Of a stretch of DNA of 34,653 nt, positions 1-18,051 are shown piece after piece. The notes under the pieces were generated by a model that searched no databases, was not told the DNA's origin, and saw only the letters and a list, made by a program, of their open reading frames with translations. The stretch covers positions 1 to 34,653 of the forward strand of contig JAEIOG010000052.1 of assembly GCA_016342495.1 (NCBI GenBank), given 5' to 3'. Source of the DNA: Phycisphaerae bacterium (GTDB lineage: Bacteria; Planctomycetota; Phycisphaerae; Sedimentisphaerales; SM23-30). The translations under genes were made by a program, and so were the position numbers. Numbering within the stretch: position 1 is the stretch's first letter; each line of letters begins with the position of its first letter.

Positions 1-950
1 AGATCCTACGCAAATGCGCAAGTTGCCTATTTTAACAAATTGCACTTTTTGAAAGAAATTCCCGTGAACGGTTACCATTTTATTTTTATGGTTGGCGATT
101 GGTAGCCTTGATTCTTGTTTCATATATAGCAGGTGGGGCGGTCGAAGTGGCTTTTGCGGTGATGCGTAAGGAAACGATTAATGAAGGTTTTTTAGTTACC
201 GGGATGTTATTTCCGTTGGTTATGCCACCGACTGTGCCATTATGGATGGCGGCTATCGGGGTAGCCTTTGGTGTTTTTGTTGGCAAGGAATTGTTTGGCG
301 GAACCGGAAGGAATATATTTAACCCGGCGATACTGGGCAGGTGTTTTCTGTTTCTGGCTTATCCTGATGCGATGGCCAGCAGGTGGATAGCTCCCGGCAG
401 TGGTCCAACCGGGCGGATGCTGGAATTTGTTAGTGCTAATGATGTTCAGGCGATGACCGAAGCGACACCGCTGGCCTTGGCAAAGCAGGGCGAGCTGACC
501 AGTATCTGGGATATGTTTATCGGTGCTATTCCGGGGAGTATTGGTGAGACATCGGCTTTGGCGATTATTTTAGGCGGGATGTTTCTGCTTATAACCCGCG
601 TAGCAAGCTGGAGAACGGTAGTAAGTACAATTGGTTCAGCGGCGATTGTTGCCGGTATTTTGCATATTAATAATCCGGATAAATGTGCTCCGGTTCTGTG
701 GAGTTTGTTTGCCGGTGGTTTGATGTTCGGTGCTTTTTTTATGACAACCGACCCAGTGTCAAGCCCATCGACCAATGTAGGTAAATATATTTATGGCGGG
801 ATTATCGGCACTATGACTATCCTGGTGAGGAATTTCGGAGGATATGCCGAGGGGATGATGTTTGCGATTCTTTTCGGTAATATTGTCGCGCCGATAATTG
901 ATGAGATGGTAGTCACTGTGCAAATAAGGAGGCTGGCAAATGAAGGGTAG
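1..950 (+). CDS. nqrB: Na+-translocating NADH:quinone reductase subunit B (5'-truncated, apparent frameshift)
   Basis: This is the C-terminal part of the NqrB membrane subunit, which carries covalent FMN and lies in the Na+ and electron path of the Nqr complex. The core reads NEGFLVTG, then FGGTGRNIFNPA, then the flavin-site region TEATPLA, followed by several membrane helices ending at 950. The gene begins before the window. Frame 1 is open from base 1 and reads NqrB-like sequence up to NGYHFIF, but hits a TAG at 103-105. The conserved remainder is in frame 3, which is closed upstream by a TAA at 33-35. Restoring one T in the T5 run at 83-87 joins the two frames as HFIFYGWR. A TTG at 99 could give a 283-residue product but has no ribosome-binding site and would lack the N-terminal helices. 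The end overlaps nqrC by 11 nt. Confidence 0.9.
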
Positions 951-1551
951 TTTGTATACTTTGATATATGCTGCGGTGGTAGGTATCGTCTGTGCGGCGA
1001 CGCTGACATTTGCGGCGAATTTCTGCCGGCCATATCGCGAGAAAAATGAGGCCGCTGAAAAGCAGATTAATATTTTGCTTGCATTAAATGTGCCTTTTGA
1101 TGTTGATGCCACCGCTGATGAATTACTTCAGATTTTTGACGCTAATATAAAGCAGGTCGAGCAAAATGGCATGGCGATTTATAACTATGAAGTCAATGGC
1201 AAGCTTGATTCTCTGGCGGTTGAATTTATTGGGCCGGGCCGTAATGCTACAGTTAAAGGATTTTTGGCTTTGGAGCCTGACCGCAAAACCATAAAAGGGA
1301 TAACTTTTTATCAGCAGGAAGAAACACCCGGGCTGGGCGGGGAAATCATAACAGCTGAATTTCGTGATCGATTTAAGGGTAAGTCAATTTATGATGAAAA
1401 AGGCGAGCCGGGTTTTGTCGTCAAGAAAAACGCTGATAAATTAAAAAATGGAGTTAATGCCATTTCGAGTGCGACCCAGACATGCGATAAGCTTGGGATA
1501 ATGTTAACTGAAACGTTAAAGTCATTAAGTCAGGAGCAGGTAGATGAGTAA
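940..1551 (+). CDS. nqrC: Na+-translocating NADH:quinone reductase subunit C
   Basis: NqrC carries the second covalently bound FMN of the Na+-pumping NADH:quinone oxidoreductase. One N-terminal membrane helix (about residues 5-28) anchors a periplasmic FMN-binding domain. That domain contains ETPGLGGEI (128-136) and the flavin-attachment motif SSATQT (176-181), with Thr179 as the predicted phosphoester-linked residue. At 203 residues it is shorter than typical NqrC (about 250-270). The start is well supported by AAGGAGG at 926-932, 7 nt before the ATG. It overlaps the end of nqrB by 11 nt and nqrD by 8 nt, indicating translational coupling. The residue three before the first Ser of the motif is Asn173, where Asp is usual. 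Confidence 0.93.
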   Translation: MKGSLYTLIYAAVVGIVCAATLTFAANFCRPYREKNEAAEKQINILLALNVPFDVDATADELLQIFDANIKQVEQNGMAIYNYEVNGKLDSLAVEFIGPGRNATVKGFLALEPDRKTIKGITFYQQEETPGLGGEIITAEFRDRFKGKSIYDEKGEPGFVVKKNADKLKNGVNAISSATQTCDKLGIMLTETLKSLSQEQVDE

Positions 1552-2203
1552 AGACGCAAAAAGCTGTGGAAGCTGTGGCACTTGTGGCTGTGGCGGCAAA
1601 GGGCTGACGACATTAAAAGAAGGTGCCTGGTCCCAAAACCCCCTGGCGATACAAGTGTTGGGAATATGCTCGGCTCTGGCAGTTACCAGTAAATTAGAAA
1701 ATTCACTGGTTATGGGAGCAGCATTAATATTTGTTTGCGTGGGGTCTAATTTCTTTGTTTCGATATTAAGAAATAATATTCCACATCGAATAAGAATGAT
1801 TGTCGAGGTAGCTATTATCGCGACATTTGTTATTTTGTTTGATCAGATATTGAAAGCATTTTACTGGGACATGTCCAAGCAATTAGGCCCTTATGTGGCT
1901 TTGATTATTACCAATTGTATTGTGATGGGCCGGGCCGAGGCTTTTGCCTTGCAGAATCCACCGATGTTGTCGATTATCGATGGCTTTGCTAATGGTTTAG
2001 GCTATGCGGGGATTTTGGCTGCTATAGCGATATTTAGAGAATTGACAGGTTTTGGTACAATAATGGGCTATGAGATTTTGGCAAAGGATTGGTATACTCC
2101 CAATCAGATTATGTCATCGGCTCCGGGTGCGTTTTTCACATTGGGGATTGTTATAGCGATCTTTAACGCGATAAAAGGCCCTGATGCAATGGAGGGTAAA
2201 TAA
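1544..2203 (+). CDS. nqrD: Na+-translocating NADH:quinone reductase subunit D, with Cys-rich N-terminal extension
   Basis: NqrD is an integral membrane subunit that, with NqrE, forms a pseudo-symmetric pair holding an intramembrane Fe-S centre. Cys42 (LGICSAL) and Cys125 (ITNCIVMG) match the known cluster ligands Cys29 and Cys112 of Vibrio cholerae NqrD, both shifted by exactly 13. That shift reflects an N-terminal extension holding Cys8, Cys11, Cys14 and Cys16 in a Gly/Ser/Thr context. About six membrane helices follow; the length is 219 residues. The start lies inside the nqrC end, 8 nt before that stop, and is preceded by a purine-rich AGGAGCAGG stretch. nqrE begins on the base after its stop. 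Confidence 0.94.
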   Translation: MSKDAKSCGSCGTCGCGGKGLTTLKEGAWSQNPLAIQVLGICSALAVTSKLENSLVMGAALIFVCVGSNFFVSILRNNIPHRIRMIVEVAIIATFVILFDQILKAFYWDMSKQLGPYVALIITNCIVMGRAEAFALQNPPMLSIIDGFANGLGYAGILAAIAIFRELTGFGTIMGYEILAKDWYTPNQIMSSAPGAFFTLGIVIAIFNAIKGPDAMEGK

Positions 2204-2776
2204 ATGCCTGATACATCCGCAATTGTGATTTTGTTTGCCGCTATTTTGACCAATAATATTCTATTGGCTAATTTCCTGGGTATGTGTTCGTTTATCGCCT
2301 GTTCGAATCAGATTAATACCGCTGTTGGTTTAGGGACGGCGGTTACATTTGTGCTGACGATGACAGCTATGATAAATTATGGTGTTTATTATCTGGTGCT
2401 GGAACCTTTGCACTTAGAACATTTGCAATTTATTGTTTTTATCGCGGTGATTGCCGCTTTTGTGCAGTTTGTAGAAATGTTTGTGGAGCGGTTCAGTCCT
2501 AAGCTTTATTTTGCCCTGGGGATTTTTCTGCCTTTGATTACCGTTAATTGTGCTATTTTGGGTGCCTCGCTTTTTATGATTATTCGTAAATATAATTTCG
2601 CTCAATCAGTTGGCTATGGATTTGGTGCTGGTCTTGGCTGGATGCTGGCGATTATATTGATGGCAGGCTTACAACAGAAAATGCGATATAGCAATGTCCC
2701 GCAACCCTTTAAGGGAGTTGCTATCGCGATGATTGTAACTTGCGTGCTGGCGATGGCATTTATGGGTTTTGCTTAG
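2204..2776 (+). CDS. nqrE: Na+-translocating NADH:quinone reductase subunit E
   Basis: NqrE is the membrane partner of NqrD in the Na+-pumping NADH:quinone oxidoreductase. Its 190 residues and about six hydrophobic helices match the family. Cys28 (FLGMCSF) and Cys116 (ITVNCAILG) align with the cysteines that, with those of NqrD, coordinate the intramembrane Fe-S centre. The ATG follows the nqrD stop directly, with GGAGGG at 2191-2196 as ribosome-binding site. A 61-nt spacer separates it from nqrF. Confidence 0.95.
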   Translation: MPDTSAIVILFAAILTNNILLANFLGMCSFIACSNQINTAVGLGTAVTFVLTMTAMINYGVYYLVLEPLHLEHLQFIVFIAVIAAFVQFVEMFVERFSPKLYFALGIFLPLITVNCAILGASLFMIIRKYNFAQSVGYGFGAGLGWMLAIILMAGLQQKMRYSNVPQPFKGVAIAMIVTCVLAMAFMGFA

Positions 2777-2837
2777 GCAGGTTTAACTATGGTCATTATA
2801 ACTGGTTTTTATTTGTGAGTTAGCGTAGGAGAAATAA

Positions 2838-3941
2838 ATGGATTACGATTATGTGTGGGCAATTTTAGCTTTTACCGGCTTGGTGGTTCTTTTGGCTGCC
2901 TGGCTGTTAATATCCGAAAAGCTACTGGTTAATTATGGTCAATGCAAAGTTGACATTAATGGCGGTGAGGAGCCCTTGGTGGTTCAGGGTGGTCAATCGT
3001 TGTTGTCCTGCTTATATTCCAATAAGATTTTTATTCCTTCGGCTTGCGGAGGCAAAGGCACTTGTGGTTTTTGCAAGGTAACCGTTGAAGCTGGCGGCGG
3101 GCCGGTGCTACCTACAGAAATGTCATATTTATCGAGAAAAGAAGTCCGCAGTAATGTTCGCTTAGCCTGTCAGGTGAAAATTCGCGAGGATGTCAGCATT
3201 CGCATTCCGGCAGATTTGCTCGATGTTAAGATGTTTGAAGCTACTGTCATAAGCAATGTTGCTTTGACCAGCGATATTAATGAAATTACGATGAAGCTGA
3301 ACGAACCAACGGAAATTTCTCAGCGTGAAGGTCAATATGTTCAGGTGCAGGCTTCTTCGCCGGATGGCGAAGTTTTCCGGGCTTATTCCATTAGTTCTGC
3401 GGTTTATGAAAAAAATATTGTTGAGCTGATTGTCAGGCAGATCCCCAATGGTATTGCATCGACTTATTTATGTGAAATCGAAGCCGGGGCCAAGGTGAAT
3501 TTTACCGGGCCTTATGGCGAGTTCATGTTAAATCAGGATCCTGAAGTTGAAATTGTTTGTGTCGCTGGTGGTAGCGGTATGGCTCCATGTAAAAACATTA
3601 TTTATTCAGTTTATGATAAATGGCCAGACCGAACGATATGGTTTTTCTTTGGCTGTCGGACAACTAAAGATGTATTTTATATGGATGAATTTAATAAGTT
3701 GGCTGAAAAATTCCCGAATCTGCATATTGTCTATGCTCTTTCTGATGAACTTACCGCCGAAGAAAAATCGAGCTGGACTGGCGAGACAGGATATGTGCAT
3801 TTAGCTGTCGATAAATTTATAAAAGGGGATGTCCAGAGACAGGCGTTTTTATGTGGTCCGCCTTTGATGATTGATGCAGTTACAAAAGTGCTGATTGAGA
3901 AAGGCGTCAAACCCGAAGATGTTTTCTATGATGAGTTTTAA
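2838..3941 (+). CDS. nqrF: Na+-translocating NADH:quinone reductase subunit F (NADH dehydrogenase, 2Fe-2S and FAD)
   Basis: NqrF is the electron entry subunit: it oxidises NADH through FAD and passes electrons to a plant-type 2Fe-2S cluster. A single N-terminal helix (about residues 6-26) anchors it. The ferredoxin domain has cluster ligands Cys70, Cys76, Cys79 (CGGKGTCGFC) and Cys111. The reductase domain shows the FAD motif RAYSISS and an NAD-binding segment VAGGSGMAPCKN, and ends in the typical VFYDEF. At 367 residues it is slightly shorter than the usual 405-410. AGGAGA at 2827-2832 supports the ATG. It is the last gene of the operon; repeat element A and a strong terminator follow. Confidence 0.95.
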   Translation: MDYDYVWAILAFTGLVVLLAAWLLISEKLLVNYGQCKVDINGGEEPLVVQGGQSLLSCLYSNKIFIPSACGGKGTCGFCKVTVEAGGGPVLPTEMSYLSRKEVRSNVRLACQVKIREDVSIRIPADLLDVKMFEATVISNVALTSDINEITMKLNEPTEISQREGQYVQVQASSPDGEVFRAYSISSAVYEKNIVELIVRQIPNGIASTYLCEIEAGAKVNFTGPYGEFMLNQDPEVEIVCVAGGSGMAPCKNIIYSVYDKWPDRTIWFFFGCRTTKDVFYMDEFNKLAEKFPNLHIVYALSDELTAEEKSSWTGETGYVHLAVDKFIKGDVQRQAFLCGPPLMIDAVTKVLIEKGVKPEDVFYDEF

Positions 3942-5126: not shown

Positions 5127-5810
5127 TTATTTCTTTTTAGCCACCTTTTTCGTAGTTTTTTTCGTAGCTTTTTTGGTGGTCTTCTTAGCTGTTGGGGTTT
5201 CTGCTTTGTAATGATCGGTAAAGTGTCGCAGCATAGCGTACATATAATGAACTTCGCTGGCAGAAATTTGTCTTTCGAGGAAACCCTGAACATCAGCCAT
5301 ATCTGATTTTGGATTTACAACGTTTTGGTCCCGAAGCATCTGAAACATCGCCGGATGCATCGGGAATGCATGAGCGCCGATAGAATGAAGCATGACGCTT
5401 GAGACAATATAAGGATTAGAATGTTCAAGGCTTTCGAGAAAAGCTTTTGCTTCCCGTTTGCCACATTCTTTTAAGGTTTCCAGTCCCAGGCTGTCTTCTT
5501 TATCGAAAATGGATTGAAGGATACCGGTTAGCTGTTCGATTACTTCACGAACTTGCGGAAAGGTTTTGCCCATAACCATGATTAATTCGTCATGGCGAGC
5601 TACGCGCAACTCATTAAAATCAACGAATTCTGATCTGATTTTTTTCATTGCGGATTTAGCTTTACTTTCAGTGGTTAGATAAGAAAGGCAAGCATCAATA
5701 AGGGCCTCAAGCGGTTCGATTAGCGGGAACTCGTCTGGAGCGTCAAAATCTTTTTTAATTTTGGTGCACAGCTTTTTGAAGCGTGCGGCATATTCTGCGC
5801 TATCTTTCAT
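5127..5810 (-). CDS. HhH-GPD-like (endonuclease III-fold) protein with Lys-rich C-terminal tail, probably non-catalytic
   Basis: The 227-residue protein resembles the helix-hairpin-helix DNA glycosylase fold. An N-terminal region reads PLEALIDACLSYL, and a central region around TLKECGKREAKAFLESL and NPYIVSSVMLHSIGAHAFPM corresponds to the HhH and post-HhH part of endonuclease III. The catalytic Asp segment (VDTH in EndoIII) reads MHPA, and the usual Lys and the Fe-S cysteines are absent. The last 25 residues are repeated Lys-Lys-Thr-Thr/Ala, like histone H1 tails, suggesting nucleic acid binding. The frame opens further upstream to 6020, but that part only overlaps rbfA. I chose the ATG at 5810 because AAGGA lies 8 nt before it. 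It overlaps the end of rbfA by 11 nt. The fold assignment is by eye. Confidence 0.75.
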   Translation of the reverse strand: MKDSAEYAARFKKLCTKIKKDFDAPDEFPLIEPLEALIDACLSYLTTESKAKSAMKKIRSEFVDFNELRVARHDELIMVMGKTFPQVREVIEQLTGILQSIFDKEDSLGLETLKECGKREAKAFLESLEHSNPYIVSSVMLHSIGAHAFPMHPAMFQMLRDQNVVNPKSDMADVQGFLERQISASEVHYMYAMLRHFTDHYKAETPTAKKTTKKATKKTTKKVAKKK

Positions 5811-6213
5811 TGCCATCATCCTTTGGCAGGGGATTGTCTGATTCCTGCGGGGTGTTTTTATCTGTAAATTCTTCGGAAACCTGTTTAAGCAAATCGGAAA
5901 CTTCCATACTCTTTTTAAGTGAGTCATCAACCAGGAAAATGAGTTCCGGACAGGTTCTTGTGTGAAGGGAGCCGGCAAGTCGGGTACGGATATAACCTTT
6001 GGCGCTTTTGACGGCTTCAAAACTAAGCTTTTCCTGAGCTTGGTTTGTACCCATAAAGCTCAGGTATATCTTAGCGACACTTACATCTTCGGTGAGCTTG
6101 ATGTGAGTGATACTTACTAAGCCGGTAAGTCTGGGGTCAGAAATTTCCTGCTGGATGACTTCGTTGATAATATCACGAATATTCCTGGTTAGTTTTTCAA
6201 TTCTACGTGTCAT
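5800..6213 (-). CDS. rbfA: 30S ribosome-binding factor A
   Basis: RbfA binds the 30S subunit and helps mature the 5' end of 16S rRNA. The 137-residue protein shows the family pattern: RIEKLTRNIRDIINEVIQQE at the N-terminus, then DPRLTGLVSITHIKLTEDVSVAKIY split over the first two strands, and KGYIRTRLAGSLHTRTCPEL with the C-terminal KH-like half. An acidic, disordered tail follows residue 110. It sits downstream of infB and DUF503, a common gene order, and overlaps the next gene by 11 nt. The 141-nt gap before it holds repeat element B. The ribosome-binding site is weak (GGGA about 9 nt upstream of ATG). Confidence 0.93.
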   Translation of the reverse strand: MTRRIEKLTRNIRDIINEVIQQEISDPRLTGLVSITHIKLTEDVSVAKIYLSFMGTNQAQEKLSFEAVKSAKGYIRTRLAGSLHTRTCPELIFLVDDSLKKSMEVSDLLKQVSEEFTDKNTPQESDNPLPKDDGNER

Positions 6214-6354: not shown

Positions 6355-6636
6355 TTAAACAGTTTCTATATAATAATCTATTAAAGTCAAATTCGTTTGT
6401 TTTCTGACGAACTGGACAATGGTATCCAGTGCCTGATGAACAAAACGACTGTCGTTGGCTACCATGGCGATACCGATCAGCGATGAACGAATTTTGTCAT
6501 TATCGCCAACTTCGGCAATCGATACATTGTACTTATTGCCAATACGGTCTTTGAGACTTTTGATGACAGACCGTTTGTCTTTTAATGTCATTGCGTCAAA
6601 AACCGAAATCTGTACGGTCAATAAACCTGTAATCAT
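6355..6636 (-). CDS. DUF503 family protein
   Basis: This small protein (93 residues) belongs to DUF503, of unknown biochemical role, often found between infB and rbfA. It shows the diagnostic LKDKRSVIKSLKDRIGNKYN and SIAEVGDND, followed by a region of alternating helices and strands. A TTG at 6666 would add ten residues, but family members begin at MIxGLLTV, so I chose the ATG at 6634-6636; neither start has a strong ribosome-binding site. It follows infB by about 45 nt. The genomic association suggests a job linked to ribosome maturation, which is inference. Confidence 0.88.
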   Translation of the reverse strand: MITGLLTVQISVFDAMTLKDKRSVIKSLKDRIGNKYNVSIAEVGDNDKIRSSLIGIAMVANDSRFVHQALDTIVQFVRKQTNLTLIDYYIETV

Positions 6637-6681
6637 GTTTTTAACCCGTCGTTTACGGGCAATCAAAATTATATGCCGGGC

Positions 6682-9519
6682 TTAATCCAGAGTTCTTGCC
6701 ACTTCAATATATTCGAAGGCTTCAAGGATATCGCCAGGCTTGAGGTCATCAAAGCCTATGAGTTTAATGCCACATTCATAGCCGGATTTAACTTCAGAGG
6801 CATCATCTTTAATGCGTTTTAATGAGTCCATAGGTGTTTCATCGCGAATGATAATGCCATCGCGAACAACGCGGATTTTAGCATTTCGCGTGATAGAGCC
6901 ATCTTTGACAATACAGCCAGCGATAGTTCCAAGTCTTGAAATCTTAAATATCTGGCGAACTTCTGCACGGCCCAGAGGTTTTTCCTGAATAGTTGGTTCA
7001 AGCATACCTTCCAGAGCTTTACGGATATCATCAGATATTTGGTAAATGATCCGGTAAAGACGAATTTCGACGTTTTCACGCTCAGCCAAGGATCGTGAAT
7101 GTTCGTCAGCTACGACCTGGAAACCAATAATAATCGCATTAGAAGCCTGGGCCAGAACAACATCACTTTCAGAGATTGGTCCAACTGCGGCATGCAAGAC
7201 GCGAACGGCAACTTCAGCCGTATTAAGTTCAGTTAAGGCATTGCAGAGAACATCAACGGAACCCTGAACATCGGCTTTAACAATGACATTAAGTTCTTTA
7301 ACTTCGCCGGCTTTAATTTCAGCAAAGAGATTTTCAAGAGTAATCTGGCTACGACGGGCAAGGTTTTTCTGGCGTTTTTTCTCTTGTTGTTCAGCCGCAA
7401 TTTGAGCTGATTTAGATGCATCATTAATAACATAAAAACGATCGCCAGCAATTGGGACTTCACTTAGGCCTGTAATAACAACAGGAGATGACGGGCCAGC
7501 TGATTGCAGTTTTTCACCAGTGGCATCAGTCATTGTACGGATCCGACCATGGCTTGAGCCTGTTACAACTATGTCGCCAACATTAAGAGTGCCTTCTTTA
7601 ACCAGCATACGGGCAACCGGTCCAAAATGACTTGTCATATTAGATTCGATGACCCAGCCAGTGGAGTCACCTTCGGTGCGAGCTTTTAAGGCATGAACTT
7701 CCGCTACATAGTCAAGTATTTCTACCAGGTCTGTCATGCCGGTACCGTTGATAGCGGAAGTCTGAATGACTTCGACATCGCCACCCCATTCGGTCGGGAC
7801 TAATTCATGTTCGGCTAATTGCCCCATCACACGGGTCGGGTCAGCCGAAGGCATGTCAATTTTATTCATAGCGACTACTATCGGAACCCCGGCAGCTTTA
7901 GCATGATTAATAGCTTCTTCGGTCTGAGGCATTATGCCATCATCGGCGGCAACAACCAGCACGACAATATCAGTCATATTTGCACCGCGGGCACGCATTT
8001 CGGTAAATGCTTTGTGACCAGGGGTGTCCAGGAAGGTTACGCGACGTTTGCCATCATCATAAAGGTATGAGCCGATATGCTGAGTGATACCGCCAGCTTC
8101 GCCTTTGGTAACTGATTCTTTGCGAATATAATCAAGCAATGAAGTTTTGCCATGGTCGACGTGACCCAGAAAAGCTACGACCGGTGGACGAGGCTGGATA
8201 TCCTGGTCAGCAATTGTTTCAAAGTCTTCGGCTAATGAGTCCCACATTGATTTTTGTTCTTCGACGGTTAGCTCAACGCCAAATTCCAAAGCGACCATCA
8301 TAGCCGAATCAGTATCAATACTGGCATTGACATTGGCCATTATACCCATGCCCATCAGTTTGCCAATAATTTGGTTAGCACGAATGCCAATAGCGGCACA
8401 AAGATCTTTAATAATAACAGGTTCTTTGATAGTTGCCTGTTCAATTTTCTTTTGTTGTGCCTGAGTGCCTCCGCCATGATTCGTCATGCGGCGTTCACGT
8501 TTGTGGAGTTTGCCACTGGAGGCCGCGGCCAATCTAGCCTGGCGTTCGGCTAAATCACGGTCGCGGAAAGACATGATGTCTTTATTTCCGCCACGGCGTC
8601 CGCTACGAGTCACTTTTTTACGGGCAGCAGTATTTTTTTCTTCTTCTGATACATGTTTAGCGTGACGTTTTTTGGTGGTTTTCTTAGCAGAGGAACCTGT
8701 TGCCGCTGGTATTGGCTGATTGTCTACATCATTAGTTGGGCCACTATCGAATCTTGGTCGACGCGGTCCTCGGCCTGGAGGAGCCGGGAGATATTCTGCT
8801 TTTTCGGTACGAATAACCTTTGGACCCGAAAGCACGGCTGGCTTGGGAATAAAGTTAATCGGTTTGGGAGCAGGGGCAAGTGGTTTGTTGGTTTCGATAT
8901 GGCCAACAAATCGGGGGCCTTGATGTTCGGTTTTTTTAGCTTTAGCTTTTGATTTAGATTTTTTGATATTATTAGCCTGGTCGGTTGGTTCAGGAATAAT
9001 CTGAGGTTGAGTTTTTACCTCTTCTGGAACTTCACTGACGGGAGAATCATCAATCGATGGCTCGACAGATTCAGGCCCTTGAGGTTCTGGAGCTATTTCG
9101 GTGGCAACTTGTTCCTGTGGGCTAACACGCTTAGGAAGTTCTTTGCCTTGGCGTAGGGGCATATCAGCAACGGCAGGTTCAGTGGTTTTGACAGGTGTTT
9201 GTTGCGGGGCTGGTTCTTGAATCTCAGCCTCAGTAGCCTTGTCATCCTTGTCATCAGAATCATCCTGCACGGTTTTGGCAGGTTCGGCCATTTTACTTTT
9301 CTTTTTTGTCTTAACCTTTTCCAGGTCGACAGGAGCAGATTCTTCAACCGTAGTAGAAAGCTCCTGGCCACTGAACCATTCACGAATGGTGGCTTCCAGT
9401 CCAGCTGAAAGGGTAGCCATATGATTCTTTACATCCAGACCTTCAGCGTTGCACTTCGTAACAATCGCAGTGCTTTTTACTCCAAGCTCTTTAGCAAGTT
9501 GGTGTACTCGTTTTGCCAA
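6682..9519 (-). CDS. infB: translation initiation factor IF-2
   Basis: IF-2 is the GTPase that recruits fMet-tRNA to the 30S subunit and promotes subunit joining. The 945-residue protein starts with an IF2_N domain (about 1-52). A long Glu/Pro/Lys-rich linker follows, then a second IF2_N-type domain (about 365-425) and the G domain with GHVDHGKT (about 452-459), DTPGH and NKID. The beta-barrel and C-terminal tRNA-binding domains close it. The start is TTG at 9517-9519, supported by GGAGG 6 nt upstream. It lies 126 nt downstream of nusA in a spacer with several short hairpins. Confidence 0.96.
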   Translation of the reverse strand: MAKRVHQLAKELGVKSTAIVTKCNAEGLDVKNHMATLSAGLEATIREWFSGQELSTTVEESAPVDLEKVKTKKKSKMAEPAKTVQDDSDDKDDKATEAEIQEPAPQQTPVKTTEPAVADMPLRQGKELPKRVSPQEQVATEIAPEPQGPESVEPSIDDSPVSEVPEEVKTQPQIIPEPTDQANNIKKSKSKAKAKKTEHQGPRFVGHIETNKPLAPAPKPINFIPKPAVLSGPKVIRTEKAEYLPAPPGRGPRRPRFDSGPTNDVDNQPIPAATGSSAKKTTKKRHAKHVSEEEKNTAARKKVTRSGRRGGNKDIMSFRDRDLAERQARLAAASSGKLHKRERRMTNHGGGTQAQQKKIEQATIKEPVIIKDLCAAIGIRANQIIGKLMGMGIMANVNASIDTDSAMMVALEFGVELTVEEQKSMWDSLAEDFETIADQDIQPRPPVVAFLGHVDHGKTSLLDYIRKESVTKGEAGGITQHIGSYLYDDGKRRVTFLDTPGHKAFTEMRARGANMTDIVVLVVAADDGIMPQTEEAINHAKAAGVPIVVAMNKIDMPSADPTRVMGQLAEHELVPTEWGGDVEVIQTSAINGTGMTDLVEILDYVAEVHALKARTEGDSTGWVIESNMTSHFGPVARMLVKEGTLNVGDIVVTGSSHGRIRTMTDATGEKLQSAGPSSPVVITGLSEVPIAGDRFYVINDASKSAQIAAEQQEKKRQKNLARRSQITLENLFAEIKAGEVKELNVIVKADVQGSVDVLCNALTELNTAEVAVRVLHAAVGPISESDVVLAQASNAIIIGFQVVADEHSRSLAERENVEIRLYRIIYQISDDIRKALEGMLEPTIQEKPLGRAEVRQIFKISRLGTIAGCIVKDGSITRNAKIRVVRDGIIIRDETPMDSLKRIKDDASEVKSGYECGIKLIGFDDLKPGDILEAFEYIEVARTLD

Positions 9520-9645: not shown

Positions 9646-10917
9646 TTACTCTTGGTCATCTTCGTTTTCAGGATTATTAGCAACCAGGTCGCTAATACCA
9701 CTTTTTGTTGGGCTGGTGCCCAGTTCACTTTGCAGAACAGACTGGGCAGCGGTAGGCTTACTGCTACGTAAAGCTGAAAGCCTTTGGGCTTCTTTAGACG
9801 CTGCCAGGACGATATCAGTTGCCAGTTTCATATCTAGTTCCAGCGATTCTTTAAGGGGCTCAGGACCAATTTCTTCGATGTCCAGCACCGATATGATACC
9901 TAAAGCCATGAATTTATCTATCATTGTGTCGTCAATGCCTTCGACAGAGCGAAGGGTAGTCAGCAAAGAATCGACATTTTCATTATATTCAGTTGGTGTC
10001 AGGATGTCGATATCCCAGCCTGTTAAACGAGCTGCGAGTCTGACATTTTGCCCTCTTTTACCAATAGCCAAAGAAAGCTGATCTTCGCTTACAACAACAG
10101 TAGCTCTTGTAAGTTCAAAACATAGAGCGGTTTCCTGAACTTCAGCAGGTCTTAAAGCATTGCCAATGAATATCTGGGAAGATTCGTTCCAACGAACAAT
10201 ATCAATTTTTTCGCCATTGAGTTCATCAACGATATTTTTAATTCGGCTACCGCGGACACCAACACAAGCTCCGACAGCATCAACTTTATTGTCAAGACTG
10301 ATAACGGCGGCTTTGGTTCGATATCCAGCTTCACGCGAAAGAGCTTTCAATTCGATGGTCTGCTCGGTAACTTCTGGCACTTCCTGCTCAAAAAGTCTTC
10401 TGATAAAATCAGGATGCGTACGCGAAAGAATAATTTTAACCTGATTGCTTTGTTCTTTAACTTCGTAAATCAAAGCCCGGACTCTTTCGCCTACGGCAGG
10501 TCTTTCGCCCGGAATTTGTTCAGATTTAGGCAAAATCGCTTCGGTGCGACCCAGATTGATGATGCAGGTGCCACCTTCGATCCGAGCGACATTACCAGAG
10601 ATAATCTGGCCAATGCGATCTTGATATTCATTATAGATGCTGTCACGTTCATCTTCGCGCAGTTTCTGGATCATAACCTGCTTAACAGTTTGGGCCGGAA
10701 TTCTGCCGAGGTCTTTGATATTTATCTGAAGGCCATCTTTAAACGCGGCAATATCACCGGTTTCTCTATCAATCAGAACTTCGATTTCTTCGTCGGTACC
10801 AAAATGTTTGCGGGCACCAGAGACCATAGCAACTTCGATATCAGCTAAAATGCTGTCGCGACTGATGTTTTTGTCTCTTGCGATACCATCTACAATTCTT
10901 AAAAGTTCCTGATTCAT
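9646..10917 (-). CDS. nusA: transcription termination/antitermination protein NusA
   Basis: NusA binds RNA polymerase and nascent RNA and modulates pausing, termination and antitermination. In order there are an N-terminal polymerase-binding domain (about 1-100), an S1 domain (about 105-175, QIISGNVARIEGG), and two KH domains, the second marked by AIGKRGQNVRLAARL. A C-terminal acidic HhH-like region holds RSVEGIDDTMIDKF and IEEIGPEPL. The start ATG (10915-10917) has a weak AAAGG about 12 nt upstream. It is the first gene of the nusA-infB-DUF503-rbfA operon; rimP, its frequent upstream partner, is absent. A candidate promoter (11023-11051) and a leader with alternative hairpins precede it. Confidence 0.96.
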   Translation of the reverse strand: MNQELLRIVDGIARDKNISRDSILADIEVAMVSGARKHFGTDEEIEVLIDRETGDIAAFKDGLQINIKDLGRIPAQTVKQVMIQKLREDERDSIYNEYQDRIGQIISGNVARIEGGTCIINLGRTEAILPKSEQIPGERPAVGERVRALIYEVKEQSNQVKIILSRTHPDFIRRLFEQEVPEVTEQTIELKALSREAGYRTKAAVISLDNKVDAVGACVGVRGSRIKNIVDELNGEKIDIVRWNESSQIFIGNALRPAEVQETALCFELTRATVVVSEDQLSLAIGKRGQNVRLAARLTGWDIDILTPTEYNENVDSLLTTLRSVEGIDDTMIDKFMALGIISVLDIEEIGPEPLKESLELDMKLATDIVLAASKEAQRLSALRSSKPTAAQSVLQSELGTSPTKSGISDLVANNPENEDDQE

Positions 10918-10945: not shown

Positions 10946-11006
10946 AGCGTCAAAAGTTGCTGTCCCGACGCTAAGTTAGGGGTGGCATACAAATTTACTT
11001 TTGACG
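10946..11006 (-). promoter_or_regulatory. nusA leader with two mutually exclusive hairpins
   Basis: In the nusA 5' leader, 10948-10957 (CGTCAAAAGT on +) is perfectly complementary to 10997-11006 (ACTTTTGACG), a 10-bp stem. The overlapping 10946-10951 (AGCGTC) is perfectly complementary to 10967-10972 (GACGCT), a 6-bp stem. Both use the same central arm, so only one can form at a time. The predicted transcription start is about 11016, so the structure opens the transcript and ends about 28 nt before the nusA ATG. Confidence 0.45.
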
Positions 11007-11022
11007 TATTGCTCATTCTATC

Positions 11023-11051
11023 TATATAACAAAAAAAAGCGGGAAAGTTAA
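11023..11051 (-). promoter_or_regulatory. candidate nusA operon promoter
   Basis: On the - strand, TTAACT (11046-11051) and TATATA (11023-11028) are separated by 17 nt; each matches the sigma-70 consensus at four of six positions. The -35 box overlaps the 12-bp palindrome GTTAACGTTAAC (11047-11058), a possible operator. The predicted start gives a leader of about 98 nt. Confidence 0.4.
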
Positions 11052-11463
11052 CGTTAACCCACTTTAGCATTCAACAGAAAATAGACCTTGCGGTCAGTTC
11101 TATTGATAGTTTCCAAGTTGAAAACAGAGCTAATTTACATAATCCATGTCTCCTGCCTCTCATTTAGAGAGGTTAATCAGCAGGAAAACTGCTGTCAAGC
11201 ACATCTGATAATTAAGCTACAAAGTTAACGTTCTTTACCTAGCACAGTTACAAGAGTATATTTTTAACACATTTTTAGCAAAAGGCCAAGTATTTTTTTA
11301 TTTTTTATGCAAAAGTAGTTATATTCAGGGCTAAAAAGTTGAAAAAAGAGGACGCAGAGGTGGTGGGCCCTTATCTGGGGTGCCAGGAAAAGCGGGAAAT
11401 TGATCCAATAATTGGAAATTTGGCAGTTTTTTTGATAAATAATAAGTTTTTCTGATTCTTGAC

Positions 11464-16083: not shown

Positions 16084-16263
16084 CCAAGCAAAATTAGCAT
16101 GCCATATTTAGATAACTTTTTATGATCCTTGCAAGTCAACCTTGACTTTGGACCAGATTGGGAGTAGTCTTAAATAAGTACACTAACAGCAAGTGGATAA
16201 TTACAAGACATTTGATATTTAACAATTAATGGTTCAGGCCATCGCCTTTTGGTACGTCGACGC

Positions 16264-18051
16264 ATGACAATATTGATTCCGCAGAGTTCGCATACATTTC
16301 ATATACCCGTAATGGGCACAGGCTTCACGATAGATACGCCTTTACGTGTAGCAAAATATGGCATTTCTTCAGTTATTTCTATGGTTGATGATACGCTTAT
16401 TGAACAAATGCGCAAATTTCACTGTGAAAAAGCAGGTCTTCCCTATCAGGAAATCCCAGATAGTGATGATAATGCCCGGGCTTTGCGTATAACCGGTTAT
16501 TTGAATCTTCTGGACAGTCTGGTAGCTCAACAGGTTACAGCATTACAAGGGTCACCTTTTGATCCTGGTAGTGAAATTACCCGCTATTTTGAATTGCTAC
16601 CCGATTCGCCGTTGAAACAGGATTATCTTGAAATGCTTTCAAATGATGATCCTCAGGGAAAACAGCAGCAGCAAGAAGCACTGCGCAGTCAGGCGATCCC
16701 CGGTAGTATCGATATTAATATTATGACTAAATCTAATCGGGAGAAATATCGCGGCACTGTGAAGTTGGCCCCGGAGTTTTCCGATGCGATGGCGGCTATG
16801 CGTGGGTATGCCGACAGTACTCTAAATTCCTCTTTGATTCTCTCAGCAGGAATGAATCCTAAGATATACAGTTATCTTGGCACATTTGACGATTTTTTCC
16901 CGGATGAAGATGGCCATATCAAAAAGAAAATTATTCTGAAGGTAAGTGATTATCGCTCAGCGATAATTCAGGGAAAATTTCTGGCCAAACGTGGTATTTG
17001 GGTTGCCGAATATCGAATCGAATCAGGGCTTAATTGTGGCGGGCATGCCTTTGCTATCAAAGGTGAGCTGATGGGTCCAATTCTGGAAGAATTCAAAATT
17101 AAAAAAGATGAAATCACTAAAGAGCTTCATCCAGTATATAATAAGGCACTTGCCGCAGGAAATCGCCCTACTGTCTGGAAACCTCTGGACCTGAAAATAA
17201 CGGTTCAGGGTGGTGTTGGAACTGCCGCCGAACATAATTTCCTTTTGGATTATTATAATGTTGAAAGTGTGGGCTGGTGTACACCATTTTTGCTGGTGCC
17301 TGAAGTCGCCAATGTGGACGAAGTGCATTTGAAAAAGCTTGCAGAAGCTACCGCCAAGGATGTATTGCTGACTAGAAGTTCTCCTTTGGGAGTGCTATAC
17401 TGGAATTTGCAGACTTCCGCCAGTGAACAGGCATGTAGAGACCGCATTGCAGCCGGCAAACCCGGAACAACATGCCCTAAGCGGCATGTGGCTTTTAATA
17501 CCGAGTTTACCGAAATTCCAATTTGTACATCGTCCAGGGCTTACCAGAAGCTTAAGCTGGAAGACATTGAAAAACAAAACTATTCCCCAGAACAACTGGA
17601 AGTAATAAAAGCTGATGTGTTGGCTAAAATATGCATTTGCCATGAACTGGGTGGGTCAGTTAAAATATTGCATGGCATTGACCCGGATGCTACGCCTACG
17701 GTTTGTTGTGGACCTGGCATTGTCGATTTTTCTAAAGTTGCCAGCCTGGAAGAAATGATTGGCCATATCTATGGCAAGAATTCATTATTAACAAACCCTG
17801 ATCGTCCTCATATGTTTGTCCGAGAATTACAAATCTATCTTGATGACTTATGCAATGAACTACATAGATATAAATTAGATTTATCTTTCCGAACGGCAAA
17901 ATATTTTGCTGAATTCAAAGAAAACCTCTTAGGTGGTATTGACTATTATCGTCAGCTGGCTAATGAGCTGGGCAATGATATTCAACATAAATTCCTTGAC
18001 GACATTAATGGCCTCTGTGCCAAGCTGATGGCGATTGCTTCCCCTGAATAG
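16264..18051 (+). CDS. large conserved-looking cytosolic protein of unknown function
   Basis: I do not recognise a named family with certainty. The 595-residue product has no signal peptide or membrane helix. It starts with a well-ordered segment (MGTGFTIDTPL, KYGISSVISMVDD) that looks like a barrel-type enzyme start. A central stretch KITVQGGVGTAAEHNFLL and SVGWCTPFLLVPE looks like phosphate-binding loops of an FMN or similar TIM-barrel oxidoreductase, which is only a suggestion. The second half is Cys-rich (TCPKR, PICTSS, KICICHELGG, TVCCGPG), possibly metal or Fe-S ligands. The frame also allows a TTG at 16249; I chose the ATG at 16264, but neither has a clear ribosome-binding site. It ends 16 nt from the convergent PAP2 gene, with no visible terminator. 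Confidence 0.8.
   Translation: MTILIPQSSHTFHIPVMGTGFTIDTPLRVAKYGISSVISMVDDTLIEQMRKFHCEKAGLPYQEIPDSDDNARALRITGYLNLLDSLVAQQVTALQGSPFDPGSEITRYFELLPDSPLKQDYLEMLSNDDPQGKQQQQEALRSQAIPGSIDINIMTKSNREKYRGTVKLAPEFSDAMAAMRGYADSTLNSSLILSAGMNPKIYSYLGTFDDFFPDEDGHIKKKIILKVSDYRSAIIQGKFLAKRGIWVAEYRIESGLNCGGHAFAIKGELMGPILEEFKIKKDEITKELHPVYNKALAAGNRPTVWKPLDLKITVQGGVGTAAEHNFLLDYYNVESVGWCTPFLLVPEVANVDEVHLKKLAEATAKDVLLTRSSPLGVLYWNLQTSASEQACRDRIAAGKPGTTCPKRHVAFNTEFTEIPICTSSRAYQKLKLEDIEKQNYSPEQLEVIKADVLAKICICHELGGSVKILHGIDPDATPTVCCGPGIVDFSKVASLEEMIGHIYGKNSLLTNPDRPHMFVRELQIYLDDLCNELHRYKLDLSFRTAKYFAEFKENLLGGIDYYRQLANELGNDIQHKFLDDINGLCAKLMAIASPE

Follow-up and report, generated by a model that had tools for sequence, protein, structure and literature searches.

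A start-stop upstream ORF and a probable transcription attenuator in the nusA-infB leader of Phycisphaerae

The leader of the nusA-infB-ylxP-rbfA operon in a Phycisphaerae bacterium is probably a cis-acting transcription attenuator equipped with a minimal upstream ORF (uORF) as its sensor, an arrangement which suggests that production of NusA and IF2 is gated by the ribosome's ability to start translation. The sensor would consist of an AUG and a stop codon with nothing, or no more than three codons, in between. In nearly all bacteria, the nusA-infB operon couples a transcription elongation factor with IF2, and how the output of this operon is matched to translation is known in part only; the most widespread attenuator before this operon has, in its general form, no described sensor. 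The conserved start-stop uORF is a concrete and testable candidate for such a sensor, and it suggests that selection for regulation can maintain even the smallest possible ORF. Leader elements of this kind are missed by gene finders and are absent from Rfam.

The nusA operon and the terminator in its leader

The DNA analysed, hereafter the window, is a stretch of 34,653 nt of contig JAEIOG010000052.1 (assembly GCA_016342495.1). By their database names, the related contigs belong to Planctomycetota, mostly Phycisphaerae including Sedimentisphaerales; the comparison genomes are mostly drafts, and the labels f1 to f7 are tool-assigned families, the window belonging to f1. Downstream of nusA, the operon contains infB, then a DUF503 (ylxP-like) gene and then rbfA (Table 1). 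The search for rimP was negative in the window genome and in 20 relatives, the same search being positive in 10 of 14 control genomes. nusA is therefore the first gene of its operon, in agreement with the first-pass annotation, which had remarked on the lack of rimP upstream. A search for viral copies of nusA returned none. Elsewhere in the window, on the plus strand, we observed a row of genes whose translations, inspected by eye, resemble a sodium-pumping NADH oxidoreductase of the Nqr/Rnf type (99-3941), a protein of 855 aa in which long stretches with no match lie on either side of a sulfatase domain (PF00884; 13190-15757), and a 600-aa ORF with no Pfam match (16249-18051).

Table 1. Genes and leader elements of the nusA operon in the window
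Feature	Position	Strand	Basis and remarks
rbfA	5800..6213	minus	Pfam
DUF503 (ylxP-like) gene	6355..6666	minus	Pfam
infB (translation initiation factor IF2)	6682..9519	minus	Pfam
nusA	9646..10917	minus	Pfam KH_5, NusA_N, S1
Alternative hairpins of the first-pass annotation, arms 10997-11006, 10967-10972 and 10946-10957	10946..11006	minus	Sequence; window-specific
Terminator U-tract	11031..11038	minus	Sequence
Terminator 3' arm CCCGCUUU	11036..11043	minus	Sequence
Antiterminator 3' strand GGGUUAACGUU, overlapping the terminator 5' arm	11060-11050	minus	Sequence and fold
Terminator 5' arm AAAGUGGG	11058..11065	minus	Sequence and fold; conserved in relatives
Overlapping alternative mini-ORF ATG GAT TAT GTA AAT TAG (M D Y V N stop)	11130..11147	minus
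Start-stop mini-ORF ATG TAA	11135..11140	minus	Aligns with CAGGAGACAGGATA-ATG-TAA of same-family relative L008
Shine-Dalgarno (SD) AGGAG of the mini-ORF	11150..11154	minus	SD and mini-ORF conserved in relatives
Leader hairpin CCUCUC-UAAAU-GAGAGG, just before the SD	11156..11172	minus	Predicted fold
Leader hairpin CAGCAG-UUUUC-CUGCUG	11178..11194	minus	Predicted fold
Strand S, antiterminator 5' strand AACGUUAACUU	11222..11232	minus	Fold; 11 bp (two G-U) with 11060-11050
Weak candidate -10 box TATACT	11255..11260	minus	Sequence only; unscored by the consensus scan

Among 181 nusA upstream regions, 176 yielded a call for an intrinsic terminator; sequences within families are related, so that this and the other leader and genome counts given here are not counts of independent events. 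The terminator of the window is modest (-9.1 kcal/mol) and is separated from nusA by a 113-nt spacer. Its GGG...CCC stem recurs in many relatives, with variation at the inner c/g and with GUGGAAAC in f2, and the shared hairpin before nusA reads, for example, AAAGTGGG...CCCGCTTTTTTTT or GAAGTGGAAAC...GTTTCCACTTTTTTTT in relatives. Across the order, the nusA ATG mostly follows the end of the stem by 20-80 nt; for the majority of f3 and f7 members the gap is 24-37 nt. A spacer of 24-37 nt has no room for both a promoter and an SD; nusA must therefore be reached by read-through, and the terminator would thus act as an attenuator.

These distances bear on the possibility that the conserved region is an independent small RNA gene, with the mini-ORF as part of that RNA and with nusA expressed from its own promoter further on. 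The conserved region does end in a terminator and the window's long spacer could hold a promoter, as such a gene would have it, but the short stem-to-ATG distance in many relatives does not fit. Moreover, a variable-gap search for the f2 core pattern found it in 43 of 159 genomes of the order, in exactly one copy each, lying 68-193 nt before nusA in 42 of the 43 and at a contig end in the 43rd. A single copy directly before nusA is what one expects of a leader acting in cis, and does not suit a free RNA gene. There was also no Rfam match, and 6S RNA (RF00013) was ruled out as the identity of the upstream RNA, as the 6S RNA of this genome lies on another contig (G000:C120:50413-50601, 60 bits; a search of 40 relatives found 6S RNA in 39). 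We regard a separate small RNA gene as very improbable. One second copy of a leader core was observed at a contig end (L314, G031:C429:11-49) in a genome whose nusA leader is elsewhere; that contig is possibly a contaminant.

A consensus scan for promoters found no convincing candidate for the leader. The weak TATACT box may mark a putative promoter from which transcription would begin near 11249, and the leader would extend over approximately 11249-11031 on the minus strand. A TTGACA at 11198 could start transcription after strand S.

The first-pass annotation had sought a nusA switch closer to the gene, in two mutually exclusive hairpins lying between the terminator and nusA, with transcription starting about 10 nt upstream of their arms. 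The pairings themselves are real: the reverse complement of 10946-10957 (AGCGTCAAAAGT) matches exactly both 10997-11006 (ACTTTTGACG, 10 bp) and 10967-10972 (GACGCT, 6 bp). Shuffling gave a perfect inverted repeat of at least 10 bp in 0.5% of cases for a 113-nt stretch and in 14% for the 400 nt upstream of nusA, and the fold of the 71-nt hairpin region gave a z of just -1.76, with 11 of 200 shuffles equally good. As to conservation in relatives, the lack of which that annotation had named as refuting its proposal, the stems failed: the arm AGCGTCAAAAGT was absent from the terminator-to-ATG spacers of all nine same-family relatives with nusA, and it occurred in just 2 of 181 nusA upstream regions, the window counted. 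A dispersed repeat was ruled out, no second full copy being present in the genome. Nor did the proposed start hold, since no sigma-70-like site was found there on the minus strand and the equivalent spacer is too short for a promoter in most relatives; what had been taken for the surroundings of a promoter is the conserved intrinsic terminator. The hairpins are probably incidental, and we give hardly any credence to their being the nusA switch. That annotation's notion of a regulatory pair of helices excluding one another in the nusA leader was nonetheless supported, with other strands as its elements.

A conserved start-stop mini-ORF

Inspection by eye revealed an SD followed by a very short ORF in the leaders, with GGAGG-CAG-ATG-ATG-TAG in one family and SD-ATG-CGN-stop in others. 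A fixed definition was used for counting: an SD word 4-11 nt before an ATG, at most three codons, a stop, and no more than 130 nt to the terminator. The SD and mini-ORF were found in 131 of 176 leaders, compared with a mean of 3.7 (maximum 8) in dinucleotide shuffles, and in none on the reverse strand of the leaders. The 45 leaders that failed this strict test include 5 of 10 from the window's own family. Immediate start-stops occurred in 79 leaders versus 1.1 in shuffles; in f2 alone they were present in 66 of 71, ending in TAG (53), TAA (10) or TGA (3). The mini-ORF was likewise recovered in 16 of 32 held-out class-level leaders, which had not been used in forming the idea (0.73 in shuffles), and its density was 2.7 per kb in leaders versus 0.086 per kb in the non-ORF DNA of the same loci.

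All three stop codons are used, and the inner codons (0-3) vary freely and are often lacking altogether; the peptide is therefore not the conserved thing, and brevity alone is conserved. This free exchange of stops and inner codons is comparative evidence that ribosomes may initiate at the AUG. In the window, two overlapping mini-ORFs share the region after the SD, and the ATG of the longer one is missing in L008, which keeps the start-stop only.

Outside the class, start-stops were found in 2 of 40 leaders against 0.3 expected, both in one family, an excess that was not significant. These two leaders (L280 in G282 and L295 in G302, Planctomycetota family f47) have ATG-TAG with an SD-like word before nusA, and are possibly an independent or older instance.

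Alternative helices and the direction of the proposed switch

The minimum-energy fold of the window's leader (11240-11031) reached -60.8 kcal/mol, with a z of -3.79 and 0 of 200 shuffles as stable, and in this fold strand S pairs with 11060-11050. Taken alone, the S duplex of the window is unexceptional (z -1.4). In the conserved alternative pairing, the 11065-11050 region would join either 11232-11222, forming the antiterminator, or 11043-11036, forming the terminator. An exact 12-nt repeat, AACGTTAACTTT, is seen at 11232-11221 and 11055-11044 (minus strand), and by its sequence the candidate antiterminator strand is a copy of the inner 3' part of the terminator.

A strand equivalent to S is conserved in f2 and f7. 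Across 36 aligned f2 leaders, the S strand GUUUCUGCUUC pairs with the terminator 5' arm in 95% of cells, versus 44-60% when the strands are slid against each other. Because these strands hardly vary, neither the S-terminator pairing nor the predicted S-SD pairing shows compensatory change within f2. Between families the strands change together, as with GAACGCUUUCGCUU and AAGUGGAAACGUUC in f7, and own partners paired better than swapped ones, both within families (f7, p 0.014; f1, p 0.037) and across them (f2, p 2e-4; f3, p 1e-6). When the pre-terminator transcript was folded, capture of the terminator arm by upstream sequence was predicted in 95% of f2 leaders (28% with shuffled upstreams) and in 90% of f7 leaders (37%). 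In f3, antiterminator capture was not above the shuffled baseline; in f1 it was 44% versus 24%, a sample too small to tell. The predicted pairing thus supports capture of the terminator 5' arm by S. Further 5' than S, at about 100-135 nt before the mini-ORF AUG, the f2 leaders also contain another conserved sequence, GGCTGCGCTTTTGCGCA..ATGGTGGCTTGG.

A further helix, P1, surrounds the mini-ORF and shows covariation (28 two-sided cells versus 14.5; 0 of 500 shuffles). Comparison between relatives establishes P1, as it does the terminator, the mini-ORF and its tie to nusA.

In the model that we favour, for which we infer the transcription start, the translation of the mini-ORF, the signal and the direction, the terminator would halt transcription unless S, near the 5' end of the transcript, captures the terminator 5' arm. 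The mini-ORF lies between S and the terminator. A ribosome initiating there would have next to nothing to translate and would therefore remain at the start codon, short of the downstream structure, and its presence on the SD and start codon would alter which helix S joins. S can indeed be paired with the SD as well (predicted UGCUUC with GGAGGCA). Our preferred direction is that, with no ribosome bound, S would pair with the SD and the terminator would form; with a ribosome on the SD, S would be free to capture the 5' arm and RNA polymerase would read through. Synthesis of NusA and IF2 would then track the cell's capacity for translation initiation (or termination). Stimulation of intrinsic terminators by NusA would add negative feedback.

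The switch may also run in the opposite direction, such that the antiterminator closes less readily when a ribosome sits on the mini-ORF and active initiation leads to termination, with negative feedback on IF2. The mini-ORF does lie within the loop that pairing of S with the terminator arm closes, and negative feedback would suit an operon of factors. The leading edge of an initiating ribosome reaches about +15, however, and the P1 3' strand, whose first position is +22 to +25 relative to the AUG in 51 of 57 f2 leaders, is just past this footprint; the possible S-SD pairing also matches ribosome-promoted antitermination better. We judge the opposite direction rather unlikely in itself, and nearly as likely as the preferred one. 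With no codon or one codon after the AUG, the leading edge would end before the P1 3' strand, and this would explain why so short an ORF is needed.

A broader form of the favoured model is that this RNA is Phycisphaerae-wide, that its codon-free start-stop senses initiation capacity, and that a three-way switch between the SD, the terminator 5' arm and S sets NusA and IF2, the leader reading ribosome initiation and not an amino acid or a ligand. We put this forward tentatively, at somewhat short of an even chance.

Relation to known leaders

Among known systems the rimP-leader comes closest (Naville and Gautheret 2010, PMC2965389); it has been termed the most ubiquitous of attenuators. Its authors described a conserved GGGc...gCCC terminator, with NusA proposed as the effector, and in the general form they saw neither a larger conserved element nor any visible antiterminator (PMC2965389). 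The gammaproteobacterial form is RF01770 in Rfam. Here too an intrinsic terminator with a GGG...CCC stem, whose inner c/g varies among relatives, stands a short way ahead of the gene that opens the (rimP-)nusA-infB operon, but rimP is lacking and there are in addition the conserved SD and mini-ORF, P1 and the predicted antiterminator strand. At the gathering score, RF01770 gave no match in the window or in 10 relatives, while the E. coli leader matched with 102 bits; in that E. coli leader no mini-ORF was noticed by eye. Known riboswitches and other Rfam leader families likewise gave no match at the gathering score in the leaders examined.

In Bacillus subtilis, NusA has been reported to be autoregulated by termination in its leader (PMC12288461). 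There a leader terminator sets the amount of transcription entering the nusA operon, as the present one would; the effector there is NusA, whereas a translational sensor is proposed here. It is conceivable that our leader is a plain attenuator of the rimP-leader type, in which the terminator is the sole control, stimulated by NusA, and the mini-ORF merely loads ribosomes behind RNA polymerase or acts as a minor modulator. Both the B. subtilis precedent and the similar terminator before the same operon in many relatives speak for this, and autoregulation by NusA through this leader is possible. As a full account we find it unlikely, as it leaves unexplained the conserved mini-ORF, the covariation of P1 and the S strand of f2 and f7.

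As in the leader-peptide attenuators of trp and his, a uORF, here predicted, lies between alternative terminator and antiterminator helices: the SD and ORF occur above chance, and mutually exclusive helices are predicted in f2, in f7 and in the fold of the window. Unlike trp and his, there is no run of regulatory codons; the 0-3 codons are variable and often lacking, and amino-acid supply therefore cannot be the signal. Start-stop sites have been found by ribosome profiling in E. coli and Campylobacter (PMC11955535). A literature search, covering few subscription papers, found no start-stop uORF described for a nusA leader. The mini-ORFs resemble the profiled sites in that an AUG is followed (almost) immediately by a stop, but the Campylobacter sites are internal to genes and out of frame, whereas the element described here lies in a leader, is conserved class-wide and is linked to a terminator. 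The leader is probably an attenuator whose uORF is degenerate and often has no codon between start and stop.
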